Shown piece after piece: positions 9,619 through 19,801 of a stretch of DNA of 33,559 nt. How positions within the stretch are numbered: the first letter of the stretch is position 1; each line of letters opens with the position of its first letter. This DNA is from a virus: positions 1-33,559 of IMG/VR virus record IMGVR_UViG_3300032053_000286, one strand, 5' to 3'. Made by a program: the position numbers and the translations under genes. A model generated the notes under the pieces. The model did no database searches and was not told the DNA's origin. It saw only the letters and a list, made by a program, of their open reading frames with translations.

Positions 9619-9891
9619 TTACTCTAATAAACTACGTTGTTGTTCACGATTGTGTTCTAGTATATTAAATCGCTTCTTATCAAATAAAAAGTTATATATA
9701 TACTGAATACTTTCAACATCTAATGTTAACGGTATTGTTTTAATATGCTGTTCAAATATAAATTCTCCTTTATTTTTCAGCGCCTTAATCTGTTTAAATG
9801 TAGGGACTGAAGTTATTCTAATCGGAAAATCAAGTTTCTTTTGAAGACTCGCAAATTCCTGGATTGTAATATCTAACTCTACCTTTACCAT
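9619..9891 (-). CDS. Hypothetical protein (90 aa), last gene of replication operon
   Basis: A small soluble protein of beta-alpha character (VKVELDITIQEFASLQKKL, then EQHIKTIPLTLDVESIQYIY). No motif recognised. The ATG lies inside the end of the uracil-DNA glycosylase gene (7-base overlap), and the stop is next to the convergent terminator, so it is the most distal gene of the - strand operon. Confidence 0.65.
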   Translation of the reverse strand: MVKVELDITIQEFASLQKKLDFPIRITSVPTFKQIKALKNKGEFIFEQHIKTIPLTLDVESIQYIYNFLFDKKRFNILEHNREQQRSLLE

Positions 9892-10592
9892 ATAATTTCA
9901 AATTCGTGATTAGCTTTAAGGAAAGCGTTAGCTTTAACAAAATGATTACAACCTATAAAGTCCGCATCATTTAAGTACCCCTGAGAAGCGGGATGAGAAG
10001 CTCTAAGAATAAGATGTTTAGAATCGTCTAAACGATCTTTAACTATTGAATCGTAGGTTGCTTGCGCTTTATTACCCCAAAGCATAAACACTTTAGGTTC
10101 TAAATCTTCAACTAATAAATCTAAAACTAAACCAGTAAAATCCTCCCAACCTTGGTTAGCGTGACTAAGTGGTTGATTTCTTTCTACTGTAAGTATAGAA
10201 TTTAGAAGAAATACCCCTTGATTAGCCCAACGAGTAAGATCTGGAGTTTGTGATAATTTTATACCGTCGTATAGTGTTGCTTCTATTTCGTAAAATATAG
10301 TCTGTAAAGAGGGAGGAGTTATCATAGTATCCATACTCGAGAAGGCTAAGCCGTTAGCTACATTAGGAAGATTGTAAGGTTCTTGACCTAAAATAACTAC
10401 CCTAACATCACTAAAAGGACACAACCTAAACGCTTTAAATACGTCTTCTTTTGCGGGATACACATAAGAATTAAATCCATTTCTTCTCTCGTTTACGAAC
10501 TTCTGTAACGCTCTTACTCCATCTTGTTTAAATACTTCTGATAAGATTGAGTACCAATCTGAACCTAAGTGGTTACGTAATTTCTTATTCAT
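9885..10592 (-). CDS. ung: Uracil-DNA glycosylase, family 1
   Basis: 235 aa, typical length. Removes uracil from DNA by cleaving the N-glycosidic bond. Motif A reads GQEPYN (residues 69-74) where most family members have GQDPYH: the usual catalytic Asp is Glu71 and His is Asn74. The rest is standard: GLAFS (81-85, with the stacking Phe84), LLNSILTVERNQPLSH with the uracil-reading Asn131, and motif B HPASQG with catalytic His200 in place of HPSPLS. It overlaps the MazG-like gene by 8 bases. Likely role: keeping the phage genome free of uracil, or working with the nucleotide enzymes next door. The D-to-E change could alter activity. Confidence 0.9.
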   Translation of the reverse strand: MNKKLRNHLGSDWYSILSEVFKQDGVRALQKFVNERRNGFNSYVYPAKEDVFKAFRLCPFSDVRVVILGQEPYNLPNVANGLAFSSMDTMITPPSLQTIFYEIEATLYDGIKLSQTPDLTRWANQGVFLLNSILTVERNQPLSHANQGWEDFTGLVLDLLVEDLEPKVFMLWGNKAQATYDSIVKDRLDDSKHLILRASHPASQGYLNDADFIGCNHFVKANAFLKANHEFEIIW

Positions 10593-11834: not shown

Positions 11835-12656
11835 TTAAAAATCATCTGAAGGTTCCACTGAAGGTGTAAATGTTGCACTTTTAAATACTTTAGGTTCAAT
11901 AGGAACTACTAAATCCCGAAGTAAATGTACTAACTGATACATCTCTGTATATAATTTAATACCTTCTCTTTCGCCGAGTTTATCAATAAAAGCGACTAAA
12001 ACAGCCGCAGGATATTGAGCGTAATTCCAATTCTCTAAGATTTTATGAGCTCCTACTTTACCAACTTTAGGTAAACCTGGAATATTATCTACAGAATCTC
12101 CAGTAATAACGGACATCCATAAAGATTTAGCTGCAGCTTCTGTACTCACGCTATAAGATTCATTAGTTTTCCAGTTCCAATGCTTACCTACGATTTGATC
12201 TAAGTCTTTATCAATAGTACAAATAAGAAGTTCAGATTCTTCTCCATCTACAGATATTCCTTGAGTTCCAACAGAAGACATTAAATCGTCTGCTTCATAA
12301 GTAGCCATAGACATAAACCCATATCTTTCTTCTAAATGATTACGCAAAGCTCTATAATGTACAGGTTTCTCTGCATTTTCTCGATTTCCTTTATAAGGCT
12401 TAGTAACGGCTATTGCATTTCTAAAGTTCTCAACTCTTGGGCAAGAGAGAAAACCCACATAATGCGTACAGCCTGTTTCTTGTTGAATAAAGAACATAAA
12501 ATCATCGAGACTTTTAATAGTTTCTTCTTCTGTTCGTTCTAAAACTACAGTAGAAGAAGAGAAACCCTCAACCTGTTCTGGTTGAGGTTTCTTTTCAAAT
12601 CCAATTTTATAGAGAATAATATCTCCATCAATCACGGCAACTTTAGAAGTCCTCAC
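11835..12656 (-). CDS. 5'-3' exonuclease (FEN/PIN-like)
   Basis: 273 aa with all acidic motifs of the flap-endonuclease/5'-3' exonuclease family: D10 and D12 in VIDGD, EADD (121-124), D149 and D151 in TIDKDLDQI, and D187/D190 in TGDSVDNIPG, followed by the helix-hairpin-helix GLPKVGKVGAHKIL (194-207). Likely jobs are Okazaki primer removal, host DNA degradation or recombination. The polymerase here keeps its own 3'-5' domain, so this separate enzyme supplies the 5' activity. It starts at GTG, overlapping the upstream gene by 14 bases. The C-terminus ends in an acidic EPSDDF tail like that of the SSB candidate. Confidence 0.9.
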   Translation of the reverse strand: MRTSKVAVIDGDIILYKIGFEKKPQPEQVEGFSSSTVVLERTEEETIKSLDDFMFFIQQETGCTHYVGFLSCPRVENFRNAIAVTKPYKGNRENAEKPVHYRALRNHLEERYGFMSMATYEADDLMSSVGTQGISVDGEESELLICTIDKDLDQIVGKHWNWKTNESYSVSTEAAAKSLWMSVITGDSVDNIPGLPKVGKVGAHKILENWNYAQYPAAVLVAFIDKLGEREGIKLYTEMYQLVHLLRDLVVPIEPKVFKSATFTPSVEPSDDF

Positions 12657-13533
12657 TGTATCTTGATTTAGGAGGAGAAGGTAAAATCATTTTATTATAA
12701 TGTCTATCTTCTTCAGGTCTTTTGACTTCTCTAAGTGTTCCTAATTCTTTAAGCGCTTCTCTAAGAAGAATAGCCCCTTCTAAAATAGTTGTATGAGGGA
12801 TTAAAGGAATGCTTTCCATAGGTTGTTCCCAGGTTTCTTCCATTGTTTCGTCTGATACTACATATTTAGAATGCCCATTACTATTTCTAGAAACTTCAAG
12901 AATAATAGGCTTATCTAAATGCTCACTATTGTTTAAATTGCAAATCATATTAGCTAAGAAACTTTGAGTGAACAAAGTATATCTAAACTGTAAAATATAG
13001 TAAACACGTTTACCATTTATTACATCTTCTAAAGTAACCTGCATCTTATGAACAACTGATCCTGTAGCTGTTTTACCAGTACAATCATAAAGCTGTACGT
13101 CAATAAGCTTACCTTCAATTTTCTGCATTTTACATCTTTGAGCTTGATTGTAGAATACAGGACATTCTTCCCCTTTAACAAGAATTGCTTCTCCTTTAGC
13201 CCACTCTTTAGTTACTAAAATGCAATATTGCATTGTAAATATTTGTTGAATAGGAGTTTCCACTTCTACTGTTTCTGCAATTTTTGCTGTAGTAAAAGCA
13301 GGAACGTCTGAAACTTCTTCTGTTTTAGCTACACCATAAACAATGGGAGCTATTTTAAGATGTTGTAAAACGCTATTTAAGTTATACACCATCTTAGCGT
13401 CAATCATTGTAAACTGTAATTTACCTGAAGCTCTTAAATCTTTAACAGCTCCGGCAGGTATGAGCTTCTTAATATCTTCTTGATTAATCCATAAAGGGAC
13501 GTTATCAAAACTTACTTCTAATTTTGCTTTCAT
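12643..13533 (-). CDS. Hypothetical replication-operon protein with acidic tail (296 aa)
   Basis: No family recognised. Residues 100-215 are beta-rich with a few Cys (EECPVFYNQAQRC, QLYDCTGKTATG) and could form an OB-like or zinc-supported fold. A helical segment follows (LEGAILLREALKELGTLREV). The last residues, RYSEDF, match the acidic C-terminal tail with terminal Phe found on SSB proteins. It overlaps both neighbours (RusA-like by 29 bases, exonuclease by 14). A DNA-binding or recombination-accessory role is inferred from context and tail only. Confidence 0.7.
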   Translation of the reverse strand: MKAKLEVSFDNVPLWINQEDIKKLIPAGAVKDLRASGKLQFTMIDAKMVYNLNSVLQHLKIAPIVYGVAKTEEVSDVPAFTTAKIAETVEVETPIQQIFTMQYCILVTKEWAKGEAILVKGEECPVFYNQAQRCKMQKIEGKLIDVQLYDCTGKTATGSVVHKMQVTLEDVINGKRVYYILQFRYTLFTQSFLANMICNLNNSEHLDKPIILEVSRNSNGHSKYVVSDETMEETWEQPMESIPLIPHTTILEGAILLREALKELGTLREVKRPEEDRHYNKMILPSPPKSRYSEDF

Positions 13534-14248
13534 ATTCGATCTGCTCTTTTAATAGTTTTTGAAATGTGGCATTACCGATGATACGGGGATCTGTTTCTTT
13601 TATGATTATGAATACTAACTTTCTTTCTTCTGGAGTAGCCACTGGGATAAATAGAGGAGAAGGAGGCATAGTAACAAATAGAATATTGTCATCTGGTATT
13701 ATTTGTTTAGTTGTAGGTTTTCTAGTAGATCCGTCTTTATTACCAGTAAGAACGTCTTGGAACGCTTTCTGATAAGGGTAGAATCTATTGTCTAAATCCC
13801 ACAACTTCTTAGCTGCAGGCTCTAAAATCGTATCGTGAAGCTCTACCATAATCCTGATAGGAAATTCATTTAACTTTCTAATCTTCTCTACGTGAGGTAC
13901 AAAGAATCTCTTGATTTCAGACATCATTCGATCTCTTGTAAACTTCTGTACAGATTGATTATAAAAACCTTGACCATTAATGGTCTTAATTTTAGGAGTC
14001 CCTGCCGCTAATGGATTTTTTAATACTACCTCTCCAGTTTTTAAGTCTGTTAAAACCTTAATAAACTTACTACCTATCTTCTTGGGAAGATAGGCGTAAA
14101 GTTCAGGGTTTAACAACTTCTTAGCTTTTGGCTTAGGGCCGTTATAAAGATAGTATTGAGGTCTTCGTTTATCCGACAATTTGATATGTCGAATATATTG
14201 AGGTATTGTAATTCTCAATATCTCATTTTTATGCAATTTCGTACTCAC
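13505..14248 (-). CDS. RusA-like Holliday junction resolvase candidate
   Basis: 247 aa. Residues 130-200 carry the RusA pattern: IRIMVELHD, then DLDN (151-154), QDVL (164-167) and IIPDDN (183-188). The acidic residues D151, D153 and D186/D187 fit the metal-binding Asp cluster of RusA. The protein is about twice the size of E. coli RusA (120 aa), with an extra basic N-terminal region (KPKAKKLLNPE). Such enzymes resolve branched DNA before packaging. It starts at GTG, overlapping the upstream gene by 20 bases; no nearby in-frame ATG exists. Placed between the Ub-like module and the exonuclease. Confidence 0.65.
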   Translation of the reverse strand: MSTKLHKNEILRITIPQYIRHIKLSDKRRPQYYLYNGPKPKAKKLLNPELYAYLPKKIGSKFIKVLTDLKTGEVVLKNPLAAGTPKIKTINGQGFYNQSVQKFTRDRMMSEIKRFFVPHVEKIRKLNEFPIRIMVELHDTILEPAAKKLWDLDNRFYPYQKAFQDVLTGNKDGSTRKPTTKQIIPDDNILFVTMPPSPLFIPVATPEERKLVFIIIKETDPRIIGNATFQKLLKEQIEYESKIRSKF

Positions 14249-14846
14249 GTTTTAAGCTTATTAGTATTTCTTCTGATACTTTTCCTAAGTCTATCTTAGG
14301 TATTAGCATAGAAGGTTCCCCAAATATAAGCTTTTTTAGTACTTCTCTACTTGCGTATTTCTCTTTGATTCCGTGTGGTTTTATTGCTTTCTTAAGCCCT
14401 GTGTGGTATTTTTTATTTCTAGAATCGTGTAGTAATTCTTCTGATAGATATAAAGTTAAAGAATCAGTATTAAATAGTCCGTCAGATTCAATTAAATAAG
14501 ATTCTTTACAAGTTAAGACTGCTAAAGGCTCTATAACCCCATTAAATTCGTGACTACTCGTTGTCATGAGACAAAATAAACCACCACCAGCAAGAATTGT
14601 GTCAGGATTATTAAATTTTCGATAGACTCTACACTTATAATCTAGAATACAATTATATAAAAACCCCATATTATATCTAGAAGTTGTATATGAAGACCAC
14701 ACTTTAATTTCATTAAATATTGTATTAGTTGTAATACCTTTAACGCAATAAATAGGAACATCGTTATTCAAATCCTCAGATACAGGAATAATCACATTAT
14801 AAGGATATTTAACATCATTACCGCTATTTCTTAAATCTATATTCAT
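14229..14846 (-). CDS. Unknown protein translationally coupled to the E1-like gene
   Basis: 205 aa when started at the ATG that forms an ATGA overlap with the E1-like stop; a frame-open TTG 21 bases upstream is less likely. No known motif. The sequence has several Cys (YCVKG, NCILDYKC, FCLMTTSSHEFNG) and a basic, helical C-terminus (KVSEEILISLKREYEIA). It is the gene next to the Ub-like pathway enzymes and, by coupling, likely to be made with the E1-like protein. It could be a target-recognition (E3-like) or partner subunit, but this is speculation. Confidence 0.75.
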   Translation of the reverse strand: MNIDLRNSGNDVKYPYNVIIPVSEDLNNDVPIYCVKGITTNTIFNEIKVWSSYTTSRYNMGFLYNCILDYKCRVYRKFNNPDTILAGGGLFCLMTTSSHEFNGVIEPLAVLTCKESYLIESDGLFNTDSLTLYLSEELLHDSRNKKYHTGLKKAIKPHGIKEKYASREVLKKLIFGEPSMLIPKIDLGKVSEEILISLKREYEIA

Positions 14847-15541
14847 AGTTGACGTTGTGTATAACAAAGAGGAGCTTCATAGATATACTTAAAGGGTACA
14901 GTTCTTTCATCTCTTCCTTGTTTTTGGTTAGTAAGAAAATTAGTAAAAAATTCAGTCAACATAGCACCTATATGACCTCCTATATGAGAAGTCGCTTTTA
15001 ATGAACAGGGCAAATCTGGAATTAAGCCGTCGTCAAATAAAGTAAGTCTATACTTATCTGCATCTTTAGGAGCTACACAATAAATCTGAAATGACTCTGC
15101 CGTCATTCTGCCGTCAAAAAACATAGCAGGACGATCAAATCGCTTCATATTATACATAGAAAGCCACTTTTCAAATAAGGCTTTCCTTGCGGCAATACTA
15201 TCGAAACAAGCAAAAGTTAAAGGTAAAATGTTCTCATCGTCTGGTGTAGTTAAATCTAATTTTCCGCAATCCTTAACTCTAACTTTATTACCTGAAAATT
15301 GGCGAACAACATTAGAAACGGCTGTAACTTTAGCTTCACCTATCGCGTTTTCTGGATATAATTGTCCTCCTAAATTAGTAAAGTCTATTGTATCAAAATC
15401 AAATATACGCATATCAATGCCTATACGACTTAAATATAAAGCCAACCAACTACCGATTCCTCCGGCTCCTCCTATTGTTACCTCTTTCTGATAACTATGC
15501 CATATAGCATCTTTAAATCGACTGTGGTATATATTTTCCAT
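14843..15541 (-). CDS. ThiF/E1-like ubiquitin-activating enzyme homologue
   Basis: 232 aa with the Rossmann-type adenylation domain of the ThiF/MoeB/E1 superfamily. GGAGGIGS (24-31) is the nucleotide loop; FDFD (47-50) provides the ribose-contacting acid; NLGGQ (56-60), K71 and D114 in ACFDS follow in the expected order. The usual Arg of NxxRQ is Gly59. C179 in DLPCSLKATSHIGG is the candidate thioester Cys. No CxxC zinc pairs are present. The family adenylates the C-terminus of a Ub-like protein. Flanked by a JAMM peptidase gene (4-base gap) and coupled to the 205-aa unknown. The set resembles the ThiF protein of PRTRC cassettes. Confidence 0.88.
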   Translation of the reverse strand: MENIYHSRFKDAIWHSYQKEVTIGGAGGIGSWLALYLSRIGIDMRIFDFDTIDFTNLGGQLYPENAIGEAKVTAVSNVVRQFSGNKVRVKDCGKLDLTTPDDENILPLTFACFDSIAARKALFEKWLSMYNMKRFDRPAMFFDGRMTAESFQIYCVAPKDADKYRLTLFDDGLIPDLPCSLKATSHIGGHIGAMLTEFFTNFLTNQKQGRDERTVPFKYIYEAPLCYTQRQL

Positions 15542-15545
15542 ATAA

Positions 15546-16721
15546 TTAAATTGCGGCGGGAGCTAGATCATCTAATAAACTGTTAATTTCAAAAACAATA
15601 TCCGTTAAGGTTTCGTCTTGAAAGTATTTATTAAGTTCCTCTTGACAATCGTCTATTAATAATTGTTGTTTATTGATAGGTACAAAACCTAACTGTTTAA
15701 ATAGTACCTCATCAAAAGAGTTTAATAAAATCTCTAATATTAGGTCATTAGCTTCTGGCGTTGTATACTCAGCATCCCAACGTTGAGCTCCCGCAGTTAA
15801 AGCCTCACCTAAAACATCAGAAGCGCCCATAGAAATCCAGACAGCTAAAAATTCTCTAACCTCTACCTCTGTAAAAAGGCCAGTCGTTTTAAATTGATTA
15901 TAGCCATGAATATACTTCTTAGGAGTATAACCTTCTATCGGGAATAACTCTTGTTGAACAGGTTTTTTAGGTTCTTTAATTATTTTAGCTGGTTTAATTG
16001 ACATTTTAACAGTATTGAATCTATCTTTAAAATTAGAAGACACTTCACTTTCTATTATACAATTAAATATTCCTAAGAATTGTTTGGTTTTTAATTCGAC
16101 TATAGACTTCTTGCCGTTAGTTAAAACCATTTCTACACTTTTAGATGTTTCAGTTATAACCGTAGCTATTTTAGCTATATACTCGTTTTTATAGTTTACA
16201 ATAAGAGATAGGAAATAATTATAACTCGGAGCACTATCGTGCAGTTCTCCCATATCAGTACCTGAGAAGAATGTTTCCATATTATGATGTGTATGAATCA
16301 ATCCCATAGACCAATTCTCATCTATATACTCCGGATAATGTTTACAGATTTGAGCAACTTCTCCTCCTGCTGTATAAGAAGTAAAAGCTTCTGATCCAAT
16401 ATCCATAAAGAATAGACCTTTAACATCAATAATTAAGTTAATAGCGTCATTAATATCTCCGCTTCTAACTTTGTAAAGAAGAATACCACACCATTCTTTT
16501 CCTTTAGGGGAATTAGCGTGAAGCCATTGAATTTGGTGTTGAACTTCTTTAGATAGGATAACCAAAGGTTTATCCTCAAAAACTAGTTCCTCTAGTCTAG
16601 TAGGTTTCTTATATGTAATAGGCTTAATCTCATCTTTAAGACGTTTACTATCCCACATACCATATAGACTACCGGAATCCAAAGAGCCAGATTTTACAAT
16701 TTTACTTTTTTTATTCTTCAT
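15546..16721 (-). CDS. JAMM/MPN+ metallopeptidase (deubiquitinase-like)
   Basis: 391 aa. The N-terminal domain (about 50-215) carries a complete JAMM zinc site: E76 in KEWCG, H143 and H145 in LIHTHH, S153 and D156 in FSGTD, giving HxH-x7-S-x2-D. Family members remove or process ubiquitin-like proteins. The C-terminal 165 residues, after a Pro-rich linker (KEPKKPVQQELFPIEGY), are helical and unassigned and may bind a partner. The ATG overlaps the end of the E2-like gene by 11 bases; the stop is 4 bases from the E1-like start. The best comparison from memory is PRTRC protein A or Prok-JAB. Catalytic competence is likely since every ligand is present. Confidence 0.9.
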   Translation of the reverse strand: MKNKKSKIVKSGSLDSGSLYGMWDSKRLKDEIKPITYKKPTRLEELVFEDKPLVILSKEVQHQIQWLHANSPKGKEWCGILLYKVRSGDINDAINLIIDVKGLFFMDIGSEAFTSYTAGGEVAQICKHYPEYIDENWSMGLIHTHHNMETFFSGTDMGELHDSAPSYNYFLSLIVNYKNEYIAKIATVITETSKSVEMVLTNGKKSIVELKTKQFLGIFNCIIESEVSSNFKDRFNTVKMSIKPAKIIKEPKKPVQQELFPIEGYTPKKYIHGYNQFKTTGLFTEVEVREFLAVWISMGASDVLGEALTAGAQRWDAEYTTPEANDLILEILLNSFDEVLFKQLGFVPINKQQLLIDDCQEELNKYFQDETLTDIVFEINSLLDDLAPAAI

Positions 16722-17595
16722 TTAATTTCTTATTTAAAATATTTGTGATATACTCTTTAATTGTTGGCTCTGGTATATATTCCACTACTGCGTTATCTTC
16801 TTCTACGGGCATTAAAATTTCTTGAATAACAGGATTATCTTTAAAAATTAAAACCACTTTGCGTTGTGCATTTGTAGCATTAACTCGTATTACAGCTTCT
16901 GTATTATTAAGCGCCGTTACAAAAATGCCATTAAGCATAAAACCTTTAATTCTAATAATTTCTAAAAGCCCTGCTATATAATCTGGGTGCTCTTCATCTA
17001 CCCTTTTTATATACTTAAGGCCATTAACGTTTACCCATTTAATAGGAAAAGAAGAGTTAGCACGTAAATAATTCCTTATATCACCGCTTCCAACAGAAAC
17101 ATAACCTGGGGCTGAGTAATTTGAAATCTTATTTAGATAAGAATAAGGAACACCTTCTAAACTTTCCCAAGAAATAAAAGCCTTAAGTTGAAATAAGAAC
17201 ATTTCAAAATTTTCAATATTTAAACCAGTAGTAGCTAAATAAGAAATAACACTAGGAAGTCCACCGGTTGATCCTAAACAGAAATTATCTAGACAAACAG
17301 TTTCTTTTTTTAAATGTGAATGAACATACTTTGAGTTATATTCAGCAAAAGTTAAAGTACCGCGAGAGCCTTGAATACGACTATCAATCCATATAGATGT
17401 ATCGCTATAACGCAAAGTGAATCTAACGTATAAATTTAGAATTTTATGTGCTTGTCTGTTTGAATTTTTAATCTCTATTTCGGGATATAAAATAGTTACC
17501 TGTGTTTCCTTATTTGAAGGAATACGAAGCACATCAACGTTATCTCCGTACTTATCTATTAAATAACCGTATAATTCATTTAATACTAAATCCAT
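16711..17595 (-). CDS. E2/UBC-like conjugating enzyme candidate
   Basis: 294 aa. Residues 1-160 resemble prokaryotic E2-like proteins (Prok-E2_D/PRTRC protein B type): a beta meander (VTILYPEIEI, ILNLYVRFTLRY, SIWIDSRI) is followed by KYVHSHL with H92 and H94, and then CLDNFCLGSTGG where C106 is the candidate active Cys. A helical segment follows (NIENFEMFLFQLKAFISWE). The C-terminal 130 residues form a further domain without assignment. Context strongly supports the call: Ub-like protein upstream, JAMM and E1-like downstream, overlapping genes. It follows an intrinsic terminator, so its expression may be lower than that of the Ub-like gene. Fold assignment needs a structure prediction. Confidence 0.62.
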   Translation of the reverse strand: MDLVLNELYGYLIDKYGDNVDVLRIPSNKETQVTILYPEIEIKNSNRQAHKILNLYVRFTLRYSDTSIWIDSRIQGSRGTLTFAEYNSKYVHSHLKKETVCLDNFCLGSTGGLPSVISYLATTGLNIENFEMFLFQLKAFISWESLEGVPYSYLNKISNYSAPGYVSVGSGDIRNYLRANSSFPIKWVNVNGLKYIKRVDEEHPDYIAGLLEIIRIKGFMLNGIFVTALNNTEAVIRVNATNAQRKVVLIFKDNPVIQEILMPVEEDNAVVEYIPEPTIKEYITNILNKKLNEE

Positions 17596-17604
17596 ATAAA
17601 TAAA

Positions 17605-17637
17605 ATAAAAAAGGAGAGGAATTGCAGTCCTCTCCTT
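17605..17637 (-). terminator. Intrinsic terminator/attenuator between Ub-like and E2-like genes
   Basis: On the - strand AAGGAGAGGA (17637-17628) pairs with TCCTCTCCTT (17620-17611) as a perfect 10-bp stem around a 7-base loop, followed by a run of Ts and A/T-rich sequence. It lies 20 bases after the Ub-like stop and about 12 bases before the E2-like ATG. It is positioned to end most transcripts after the Ub-like gene while some read through. Confidence 0.85.
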
Positions 17638-17656
17638 ATAAGTTGTTTAATTAAGA

Positions 17657-18262
17657 CTATTTCTTAAATTTTCTTGAAAACTCACAACGAGCTTCTGCGA
17701 ACTCATCTTTGAATTCTGGGTAAGTGTTTACAAGCTTATCCATTTCTATTTGAGCAGTTTCCATAATATCTCTAACAGCTCGTTTCAAATCGGCTTTAGT
17801 TTTAACTGGCGGAGCTTGAACAACTTTAGGTTGAACTTTAGCTACAGCTACCGTCTTAGAAGGATTAATGATTTTAACGCCTCCATTATTTGACTTTTTA
17901 GCTTCAAATCTACGTAGACGACTTTTCAAAGCGTCTACATTTCCCGGAGCTGTATTAAGCTTATTAGCTTTTAAAGCTCGCATAAGTTGTGTAGAATTAA
18001 GATTAGAGTATTGGTCTTTTCTTACTACTTGCCCAGACTTAGTGTTCTCGATTACAAAGAAAAGGTCAAACGCTTCTTCAGGCAAGATTATGCTGTTATT
18101 ATCTAATTTAACTTCCGTTTGTCTTACAACAGCTACTGTATTAGGAGGAATGTGATCTGCAATAAGAGATTTCAATTCTCCCCAAGTAGTTACATTAGTT
18201 GTAATTTGAGGTCTGTCATTTGTTGTTGTTAGAATTAATCTAACGATTCTATCTGTTTGCAT
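17657..18262 (-). CDS. Ub-like (beta-grasp) protein fused to a SAP-like domain
   Basis: 201 aa. Residues 5-77 fit a beta-grasp: two strands (RIVRLILTTTND, QITTNVTT), helix WGELKSLIADHI, then VAVVRQTEVKL and DLFFVIENTKSG. The end resembles prokaryotic Ub-like proteins (Prok_Ub/PRTRC protein C). Residues 85-120 (NLNSTQLMRALKANKLNTA, then RLRRFEAK) resemble a SAP/HeH DNA-binding helix-loop-helix. A NNGG occurs at 125-128, then a Pro/Val/Lys linker and a helical tail. There is no C-terminal Gly-Gly. The ATG overlaps the primase stop by 14 bases and an intrinsic terminator follows. Inferred role: a modifier or scaffold linked to phage DNA. Domain calls are from pattern only. Confidence 0.68.
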   Translation of the reverse strand: MQTDRIVRLILTTTNDRPQITTNVTTWGELKSLIADHIPPNTVAVVRQTEVKLDNNSIILPEEAFDLFFVIENTKSGQVVRKDQYSNLNSTQLMRALKANKLNTAPGNVDALKSRLRRFEAKKSNNGGVKIINPSKTVAVAKVQPKVVQAPPVKTKADLKRAVRDIMETAQIEMDKLVNTYPEFKDEFAEARCEFSRKFKK

Positions 18263-19256
18263 AATTAATAGCGTTATCTAAATGGTAATATAAAAATTGT
18301 TTGGTGGTTTCTTGATCGTTTTCTATCCTGAAGTCGCTGAGGTCTTTCTGTAAGCAGTCTAGTTCTATATGGTTTAACTTATACTTTTCAGCATTAAGTT
18401 TAGACCAATAAGTTCCAACTTCATCGTTATCATATAATATGAAAACGTGTTCAAATTTGGTTTTAAGAGTTTCTATTAAATCAGAAGGCACTAAAGAAGA
18501 TTCCTGTGGAGGAGCTACTGAAGTAATACCTAAAGAATGTAGAACCATTACATCTTTTAAAGATTTGGTTATGATTACTATTTTTTGATTTAAGTCTAGT
18601 TGACTTAATCCTTGTATGTTGTTACCATTACCCCAAAACTTCTGCCTTCCTAATTCTTTCGCCCTAGGAAAGTAAATCTTGTAATCTCCATCTCCAAAAT
18701 AATAGACATACGCTGGATTGTTTACATTATAAGTGTAAGCTAACTTCTCGTCTAGCCATATATGGCTACACGAAGCAACGTTAAAATGATTAAGAATTTT
18801 ACTATTTAAACCAAACTGTTTCCAGTAGGTCTTATCAGCAGTCGTCCAAGCCTGCCGTTTTACTTGTATTATTTTCTTAACCTTTTCTATTTTCTGTCGA
18901 TTGACTCTTTCAACTAATTCTGGTTTTTTTGGATACGGTATGAACATACCACAACTAATCATATTGTAATCTGTTGCTACTCGTTGAATAGCTTGAGAAT
19001 ACGAAATGTTTAAAATTGTGGAAACCGCTTTGAAACAATCGCCAGAGAACTTTCCTGAGAAGTCCTTTAAAAGTATCATTGATCCCATATCTTTAAAGCC
19101 GCAAGTAGGATTTTTATCCTCTCTTAACGGGCTACAAAAACGGTAATCAAATTGAACCTCAACATTAAGATAGCGTCTGAAGATCTCCTCTTCAGACACT
19201 ATCTCTAATACTTGATCTCTTGTTACTTTACTGGTTATGTTTCTTGAACTAAACAC
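18249..19256 (-). CDS. DNA primase with zinc-binding-like N-terminus and TOPRIM domain
   Basis: 335 aa. The N-terminus follows the CHC2-type primase layout (FCSPLREDKNPTCGF, then DFSGKFSGDCF) with Cys residues in the right region, though not a full CHC2 set. The TOPRIM part holds VIITKSLKDVMVLHSLG (around 225-241), where the usual EG is replaced by KS, and ILYDNDEVG (about 275-283) with the acidic DxD, then KDLSDF. Such K-S-containing TOPRIMs are, from memory, common in Bacteroidota phages. It makes RNA primers for the replisome. It starts at GTG, whose first base is the last base of the preceding TAG. Confidence 0.8.
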   Translation of the reverse strand: MFSSRNITSKVTRDQVLEIVSEEEIFRRYLNVEVQFDYRFCSPLREDKNPTCGFKDMGSMILLKDFSGKFSGDCFKAVSTILNISYSQAIQRVATDYNMISCGMFIPYPKKPELVERVNRQKIEKVKKIIQVKRQAWTTADKTYWKQFGLNSKILNHFNVASCSHIWLDEKLAYTYNVNNPAYVYYFGDGDYKIYFPRAKELGRQKFWGNGNNIQGLSQLDLNQKIVIITKSLKDVMVLHSLGITSVAPPQESSLVPSDLIETLKTKFEHVFILYDNDEVGTYWSKLNAEKYKLNHIELDCLQKDLSDFRIENDQETTKQFLYYHLDNAINYANR

Positions 19257-19801
19257 TAAAAATCGTCGTTATCAGCTTGAGGCGCGGCGATAGGAGATGC
19301 GATATCCTTATCTGCTTTTACGTCCGGCTTAACTAATAAATCGTATTTAGGGTTAATAGTAATATTAACTTTATGGAAAGTAGTAGATAGGAAATTACCT
19401 AAATACGGGATTTGTAAAAATCCGTTCTTTGCATTGTAGGTTAACTTTAACTCTTCAATAGCGGGAGCAGCTATAACTCTAGGCAAAACAAGAGCTACTA
19501 ATTTAGAAGCCCAATCTTTAAAGTCGTTTCCAGATATAGCATCTAATTCCGCTTTAGTCGCCCAACCCATAAAAATATGAGTAATACGCTCGATTGCTCT
19601 TTCTTCATTCTCTTTCTTCCAATTTGCATTAGTTCTATCAATAGCAAATTCTCTCACTTTTGTAGTTCCTTGGGCAGAACTAAACATAAAATCAATATCC
19701 CCTTTATCAGAGAGTACGATATTATCCAACTTTGCAGGATGAACTCCTGCCAACATACTTGAAAATTTGCTTTCTCCTGTTGCTTCTTTTGTACTAAACA
19801 T
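19256..19801 (-). CDS. Single-stranded DNA-binding protein candidate
   Basis: 181 aa, of mixed beta-alpha content, with a disordered acidic C-terminus ending ADNDDF. That acidic tail with a terminal Phe is the mark of SSB proteins (E. coli SSB, T7 gp2.5), where it recruits partners. The core has basic and aromatic positions (ANWKKENEER, FLQIPYLGNFLSTTFHKVN) but no OB-fold motif I can identify by eye. It is located between primase and RecA-like genes. The call rests on tail plus context; it could also be another DNA-binding accessory protein. Confidence 0.55.
   Translation of the reverse strand: MFSTKEATGESKFSSMLAGVHPAKLDNIVLSDKGDIDFMFSSAQGTTKVREFAIDRTNANWKKENEERAIERITHIFMGWATKAELDAISGNDFKDWASKLVALVLPRVIAAPAIEELKLTYNAKNGFLQIPYLGNFLSTTFHKVNITINPKYDLLVKPDVKADKDIASPIAAPQADNDDF

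Follow-up and report, generated by a model that had tools for sequence, protein, structure and literature searches.

A candidate ubiquitin-like conjugation cassette in the replication region of crAss-like and related phages

What do the five adjacent genes between the primase and resolvase genes of the virus record IMGVR_UViG_3300032053_000286 do together? The whole 33.6-kb record (33,559 nucleotides, called the window here) was analysed, and the five minus-strand open reading frames (ORFs) spanning 14229-18262, between the primase and RusA-like genes, had been read in an earlier note as genes for a ubiquitin (Ub)-like protein, an E2-like protein, a JAMM peptidase, an E1-like enzyme and an unknown protein, here termed X. 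All five ORFs were found at that place and on that strand. Our analysis supports the broader claim of the note, namely a phage-encoded Ub-like conjugation module in the replication block that is similar to but distinct from the PRTRC and Bil sets, and suggests, with a probability of roughly three in four, that the cassette constitutes a complete Ub-like conjugation cascade from precursor to conjugate. The note's further proposal, that such a system would modify replisome, recombination or host proteins, is conjectural.

The Ub-like gene (17657-18262, minus strand) encodes 201 amino acids (aa). Neither this protein nor the E2-like protein had a Pfam match; both assignments were made from the predicted structures, the invariant residues and the gene context. 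Because searching the PDB sequences with the Ub and E2 profiles returned only chance-level matches, mostly to coiled coils and a zinc-finger protein, fold comparison was used instead. AlphaFold2 (AF2), with 65 homologues, predicted a confident Ub-like domain with a beta-grasp fold at residues 1-77 (18032..18262, minus strand), as the earlier note's assignment implies, and the predicted local distance difference test (pLDDT) scores were 91-98 over the first seven 10-residue blocks. The leading Foldseek matches of this domain in the PDB, with a probability of 1.00, were ubiquitin-superfamily or related beta-grasp folds, and the matches included DWNN, UBX, ISG15, ubiquitin and FAT10, as well as a bacterial Ubl-deubiquitinase complex at rank 38, with not one E-value below 0.001. 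Residue conservation was counted over 113-118 distinct sequences, depending on the protein. The last residue of the domain, Gly77, was found in 113/113 sequences, and Lys-Ser precedes this invariant glycine in 79/87 loci.

The Ub ORF stops exactly one residue past the glycine in 15/87 loci (KSGK, KSGE or AAGH followed by the stop codon) and at most three residues past it in 18/87, and continues for more than 40 residues in 67/87; most of the other Ub-like proteins carry an extension of 50-240 aa. Being either short-tailed or extended past the glycine, these precursors resemble ubiquitin-type precursors, and we infer that they would be cut after Gly77, with the JAB peptidase of the cassette as the obvious processing enzyme. 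The extension in the window (residues 78-201; 17660..18031, minus strand) is predicted from the AF2 secondary structure to form a helix-loop-helix (SAP/HeH-like), a floppy linker and two helices, and a SAP match was obtained for 2/65 Ub-like homologues (best 3e-4). Between crAss001 and cr112_1 the ratio of nonsynonymous to synonymous substitution rates (dN/dS) was 0.09 for the Ub domain and 0.34 for the extension, based on small counts. Several loci lack the extension or have a separate small ORF in its place, and in several phages with a short Ub a small helical ORF stands between the Ub and E2 genes. A hidden Markov model of the fused Ub tails matched these separate ORFs only marginally (best 0.016), suggesting that the two may be homologous. 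In the crAss-like phage cr106_1 (L006:3725-4925), the Ub-like ORF ends in KSG-KF and is followed at once by an inserted HNH endonuclease gene, and the extension restarts as a separate ORF. A small transmembrane protein encoded in the same gene block of three loci (L185:17263-17445, counted on the reverse strand, L063:477-659 and L028:685-939) shares the C-terminal helix motif of the Ub extension, ..E-x-x-x-LAxEAxExExxF.., hinting that the two proteins may have a common binding partner.

The E2-like (UBC-type) gene (16711-17595, minus strand) encodes 294 aa, and His94 (17314-17316), the candidate catalytic Cys106 (17278-17280) and Gly108 were each invariant in 115/115 sequences. In its AF2 model a helix and beta strands are followed by a long loop, which carries His94 and Cys106, and then by two helices; this is the UBC order of elements. 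The best PDB probabilities of the model were 0.72 for an RWD domain, 0.60 for Atg10 and 0.60 for another RWD domain; in BFVD, the significant matches were all to members of the same family or to proteins without a name, with a weak match to 'Type II CBASS E2' (E 0.056). The predicted structure makes an E2 likely, and of the UBC fold invoked by the earlier note the order of elements was recovered, whereas the fold match was only weak.

The JAMM/JAB metallopeptidase gene (15546-16721, minus strand; 391 aa) matched Prok-JAB below the cut-off in the window (E=7e-4), 11/11 homologues matched Prok-JAB, and the PADLOC JAB model matched the window protein at 1.3e-4. The JAMM ligands that had been named from the window alone, E76, H143-x-H145, S153 and D156, were each present in 117/117 distinct homologues. 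The ThiF/E1-like gene (14843-15541, minus strand; 232 aa) matched Pfam ThiF above the cut-off (E=1.2e-14), and a profile of 11 phage homologues matched UBA5 (top), MccB, ThiF, MoeB and Cap2 in the PDB. Arg8, Asp50, Lys71, Asp114, Arg119, Asp143 and Arg145 were found in 116/116 E1 sequences and the candidate catalytic Cys179 in 114/114, and the GxGGIG motif is invariant or almost so. When the five cassette proteins were run through PADLOC, only the generic E1-E2 and JAB models matched. Gene X (14229-14846, minus strand; 205 aa from ATG or 212 from TTG) overlaps the E1 stop codon and is a variable partner, with homologues directly behind E1 in 48/91 loci. It is the least conserved cassette member; about half of the loci have, behind E1, a gene with no recognisable relation to it, though one that is linked equally tightly. 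For each of the five cassette genes dN/dS was well below 1.

A scan of viral contigs with the single window E1 sequence gave no match, but relatives were found with an E1 alignment. IMG/VR was scanned twice, with the E1 alignment and then with JAB as seed; the E2 alignment was too diverse to serve as a seed. The E1-alignment scan gave 221 IMG/VR relatives, from which 80 loci were kept, together with the loci of deposited phages. By tblastn, E1 matched 82 phage records (query coverage of at least 80% in 74), comprising Fpv1-type Flavobacterium phages, Steigviridae crAss-like phages (crAss001, DAC15, cr128_1 and others) and a bajarodcaudo virus, and a search with the crAss001 E2-like protein alone recovered 74 records, whose organism names gave the same make-up. 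The known hosts of cassette-bearing phages are Bacteroides and Flavobacterium. In the annotated neighbourhoods of relatives the order is primase, Ub-like, E2-like, JAB, E1 and X, usually followed by uracil-DNA glycosylase (UDG). In crAss001 the four genes for the Ub-like, E2-like, JAB and E1 proteins are gp79-gp76, or gp79-gp75 with X included; the record labels gp77 as metalloprotease and gp76 as ThiF thiamine biosynthesis, and the remaining cassette genes as hypothetical.

The order Ub-E2-JAB-E1 was kept in 87/87 family loci uncut by a contig end, drawn from the E1-seeded IMG/VR set and the deposited phages, and in 74/74 JAB-seeded loci, where five further loci were contig edges. The two locus sets partly share contigs, and the agreement of JAB seeding with E1 seeding makes a sampling bias towards E1-bearing loci less of a concern. 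Every untruncated homologous locus thus keeps the set together, as the earlier reading of the genes as one module implies. In three loci (L091, L092 and L094) the intact cassette does not adjoin the primase gene, which indicates that the unit is the four genes themselves rather than the cassette plus primase. Pairwise distances correlated with those of the primase for E1 (r=0.89) and JAB (r=0.87), and more loosely for Ub (0.69) and E2 (0.73); the cassette has thus long resided in these phages. As far as a pattern-based scan can tell, only two cassette matches were found in bacterial genome contigs, both from metagenome-assembled genomes: a Clostridium sp. contig (L096) with the full Ub-E2-JAB-E1 set and a Spirochaetia contig (L095) that begins at E1. 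Both are probably phage contigs binned with bacteria. Two E1 matches from jumbo-type phages (L011 and L012) were set aside for having no recognisable Ub, JAB or X partners. In one of them, the 229-kb Xanthomonas phage PhiXhv-16 (L011:5232-8606), an 893-aa cysteine-rich protein with an E2-like HPH...CLGS motif is encoded directly before the ThiF-like gene, and the two may form another E1-E2 pair of phages, distinct from that of the cassette.

The gap between the Ub and E2 genes of the window holds a terminator-like structure (17607-17637, minus strand), a perfect 10-bp hairpin AAGGAGAGGA-CTGCAAT-TCCTCTCCTT followed by a T-run, with a folding energy of -15.2 kcal/mol for the 60-nt stretch. Such a hairpin follows the Ub stop codon in 69/112 distinct loci and in 0/165 shuffles, and the same type occurs after E2 in 10/115, after JAB in 10/115 and after E1 in 4/112. 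Considering only gaps of at least 20 nt, it was found behind Ub in 49/72 versus 56/429 for the other genes (Fisher p 1.6e-21, for loci that are not independent). Its position is conserved and its stem sequences differ among loci; the Ub-E2 gap of crAss001 also has a hairpin, with an imperfect stem. Partial termination of transcription at this site would yield the modifier in excess of the enzymes.

The proposed cascade would begin with the JAB peptidase, which would trim the Ub-like precursor after Gly77, with the loss of one residue in some phages and of the whole extension in the window phage. The E1-like enzyme would then adenylate Gly77 with ATP and probably hold the modifier on Cys179, from which the E2-like protein would take it on Cys106 and join it to lysines of target proteins, and the same JAB could take the tag off again. 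The site among primase, Sak4, helicase, polymerase and UDG genes and the co-divergence with the primase lead us to expect the targets in genome replication or early host takeover. Several points weigh against such a cascade. No E3 or target is known for the cassette, and gene X has no match to a known family. The E2-like protein lacks a Pfam match and its model has no significant match in the PDB (E 0.14-0.25 and probability 0.38-0.72 for E2/RWD-type folds). The modifier ends in Ser-Gly, not Gly-Gly. The Arg of the N-x-x-R-Q motif, corresponding to MoeB Arg73, a key residue (PMC12355090) that matters for adenylation in MoeB, is replaced by Gly59 in 113/116 E1s. Moreover, the loci are akin, so that the locus counts are not independent.

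Among the known systems, the PRTRC sets (NCBIfam PRTRC A, B, C and ThiF) correspond to operon type 6d of Iyer et al. 2006, who described five bacterial operon types and a phage Ub-like/JAB pair without E1 or E2 (PMC1779556). Like the phage cassette, the PRTRC sets, here taken from plasmids, lie on mobile DNA and encode a small Ub-like protein with a C-terminal Gly, an E2-like protein, a JAB and a ThiF/E1, each in a gene of its own. PRTRC ThiF aligned with the phage E1 profile (hhalign probability 99, E 2e-19), with a Cys-Ser motif in both, and PRTRC A with the phage JAB profile around H-S-H...S-x-x-D (E 3e-6). In contrast, PRTRC B aligned with the phage E2 over 12 columns only (hhalign E 0.19), indicating no profile relation, and PRTRC C did not match the phage Ub profile. 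Prok-E2_D had no match in five phage records; type 6d E2s lack the upstream His that the phage E2 has, and PRTRC ThiF has an Arg (NVGRQ) where the phage E1 has Gly. The window E1 scored 27 bits against the PRTRC ThiF model, whose cut-off is 144.75, as a relative rather than a member. Unlike in PRTRC, no ParB_N match at E 0.01 was found in the window and seven related phage records (eight in all), confirming the earlier remark that no ParB gene accompanies the cassette, and no counterpart of PRTRC E or F was recognised. Given the missing ParB, the unrelated profiles of E2 and Ub and a ThiF score far under the cut-off, membership in PRTRC was rejected.

The bacterial anti-phage defences Bil (BilABCD) and Cap2-Cap3 of type II CBASS (cyclic-oligonucleotide-based antiphage signalling system) have in common with the phage cassette the logic of E1, E2 and JAB and, in Bil, a Ub-like protein; the phage E1 profile matched Cap2, and the Ub fold matches include the bacterial Ubl-deubiquitinase complex. 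Bil and CBASS are owned by bacteria against phage, whereas the set described here belongs to the phage and is a core module of its replication region. Type II CBASS comprises an E2-E1 fusion (E1-E2 fusion is reviewed in PMC12355090) and a CD-NTase (cGAS/DncV-like nucleotidyltransferase), whereas the phages encode E1 and E2 separately, with no CD-NTase or effector seen. With E1 and E2 unfused and only generic E1-E2/JAB models matched, the cassette was not assigned to Cap2/Cap3 of type II CBASS. For the tail genes TAPI (Ub-like) and TAPK (JAB) of lambda and T1, the JAB was proposed to cut behind the Ub (PMC1779556). This pair likewise combines a phage-encoded Ub-like protein with a C-terminal Gly, a second domain after Ub and a JAB, but lacks E1 and E2, lies in the tail assembly cluster and has a ThiS/MoaD-like Ub domain. 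The eukaryotic UFM1-UBA5-UFC1 system has a compact E1 like the phage set, and UBA5 structures were the top PDB profile matches of the phage E1. The UFM1 precursor ends in a single Gly and a very short tail and is cut by a cysteine protease, unlike in the phage set with its JAB; the likeness to the phage set concerns the E1 and the precursor end rather than the sequences of modifier and E2.

Could the E1 charge a ThiS/MoaD-like Ub protein, trimmed by JAB, with sulphur, to be used in the chemistry of nucleotides, tRNA or cofactors? The E1 is single-domain, its best NCBIfam match, far below the cut-off, is ThiF of the ThiS system, and nucleotide-metabolism genes lie nearby in the window. Sulphur transfer, however, needs no E2-like protein with an invariant Cys, which is always there; the window proteins that were scanned included no recognisable rhodanese or thiolation protein, and the C-terminus is Ser-Gly, not Gly-Gly, so that we regard this role as unlikely. 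A device like Cap2/Cap3, which instead of tagging many targets would mainly attach or remove one protein and thereby switch off CBASS or Bil or regulate a phage enzyme, would agree with the E1 matches to Cap2 structures and PADLOC E1-E2 models, and phages are known to need counters to such defences. Yet the cassette supplies its own Ub-like protein, has been retained by phages of the crAss001 and Fpv types and by many from the environment, and is core and co-inherited with the primase, unlike patchy counter-defence genes, all of which makes such a device quite improbable.

The long extension on 67/87 Ub proteins, some with a SAP match, and the small helical ORFs that separate Ub from E2 in several phages with a short Ub would also suit a Ub domain serving mainly as a fusion partner or maturation device, from which JAB frees a DNA-binding-like helical extension, conjugation being secondary or lost. 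That account leaves the constant E1 and the E2 with its invariant Cys unexplained, and in 15/87 phages only one residue could be removed; we consider it very improbable. Conjugation by a complete cascade remains the preferred reading.

Bacterial Ub-like conjugation is known mainly from plasmid-borne PRTRC sets and anti-phage defence. Complete Ub-like sets have been described for bacteria, archaea and eukaryotes, but, as far as we could find, not as a core phage part. In the literature searched, which included few subscription journals and no preprints, we found no description of a complete phage Ub-like set and no link of crAss-like phages to a Ub-like system, although earlier notice elsewhere is possible; ThiF and JAB do not occur in the main text of Yutin et al. 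2021. It is probable that a large phage group including the Steigviridae crAss-like gut phages has a core, vertically inherited Ub-like system, with its own processing, E1, E2, deconjugase and modifier-excess control, which tags phage replication or host proteins in the course of infection and would be the first full viral Ub-like cascade in bacteria. These phages keep the full set, always intact, in the replication block, and as they include the growable isolates crAss001, DAC15 and Fpv1-type phages, the role of a prokaryotic Ub-like system becomes directly testable in tractable infections. Likely functions are thereby proposed for four crAss001 genes, correcting the thiamine biosynthesis label of gp76, and the cassette adds an independent lineage in which the origin of ubiquitin-type signalling can be studied.

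The DNA primase gene (18249-19256, minus strand; phrog_12622, 1.9e-48) overlaps with its end the start of the Ub-like gene, and the gene for the RusA-like Holliday junction resolvase (13505-14248, minus strand; phrog_4632, 1.4e-6) comes next after X, both as the earlier note had described. The cassette is surrounded by genes for a Sak4-like annealing protein, a helicase, a family-A-type DNA polymerase, a deoxynucleoside monophosphate (dNMP) kinase and a MazG-like protein; the gene at 9885-10592 clusters with the UDG family of related phages, and the plus-strand block of the window includes an endolysin gene. Three further proteins of the replication block, all encoded on the minus strand (19256-19801, 12643-13533 and 11835-12656), end in ..DNDDF, ..YSEDF and ..PSDDF, respectively, tips that resemble the acidic C-terminal tip of single-stranded DNA-binding protein.

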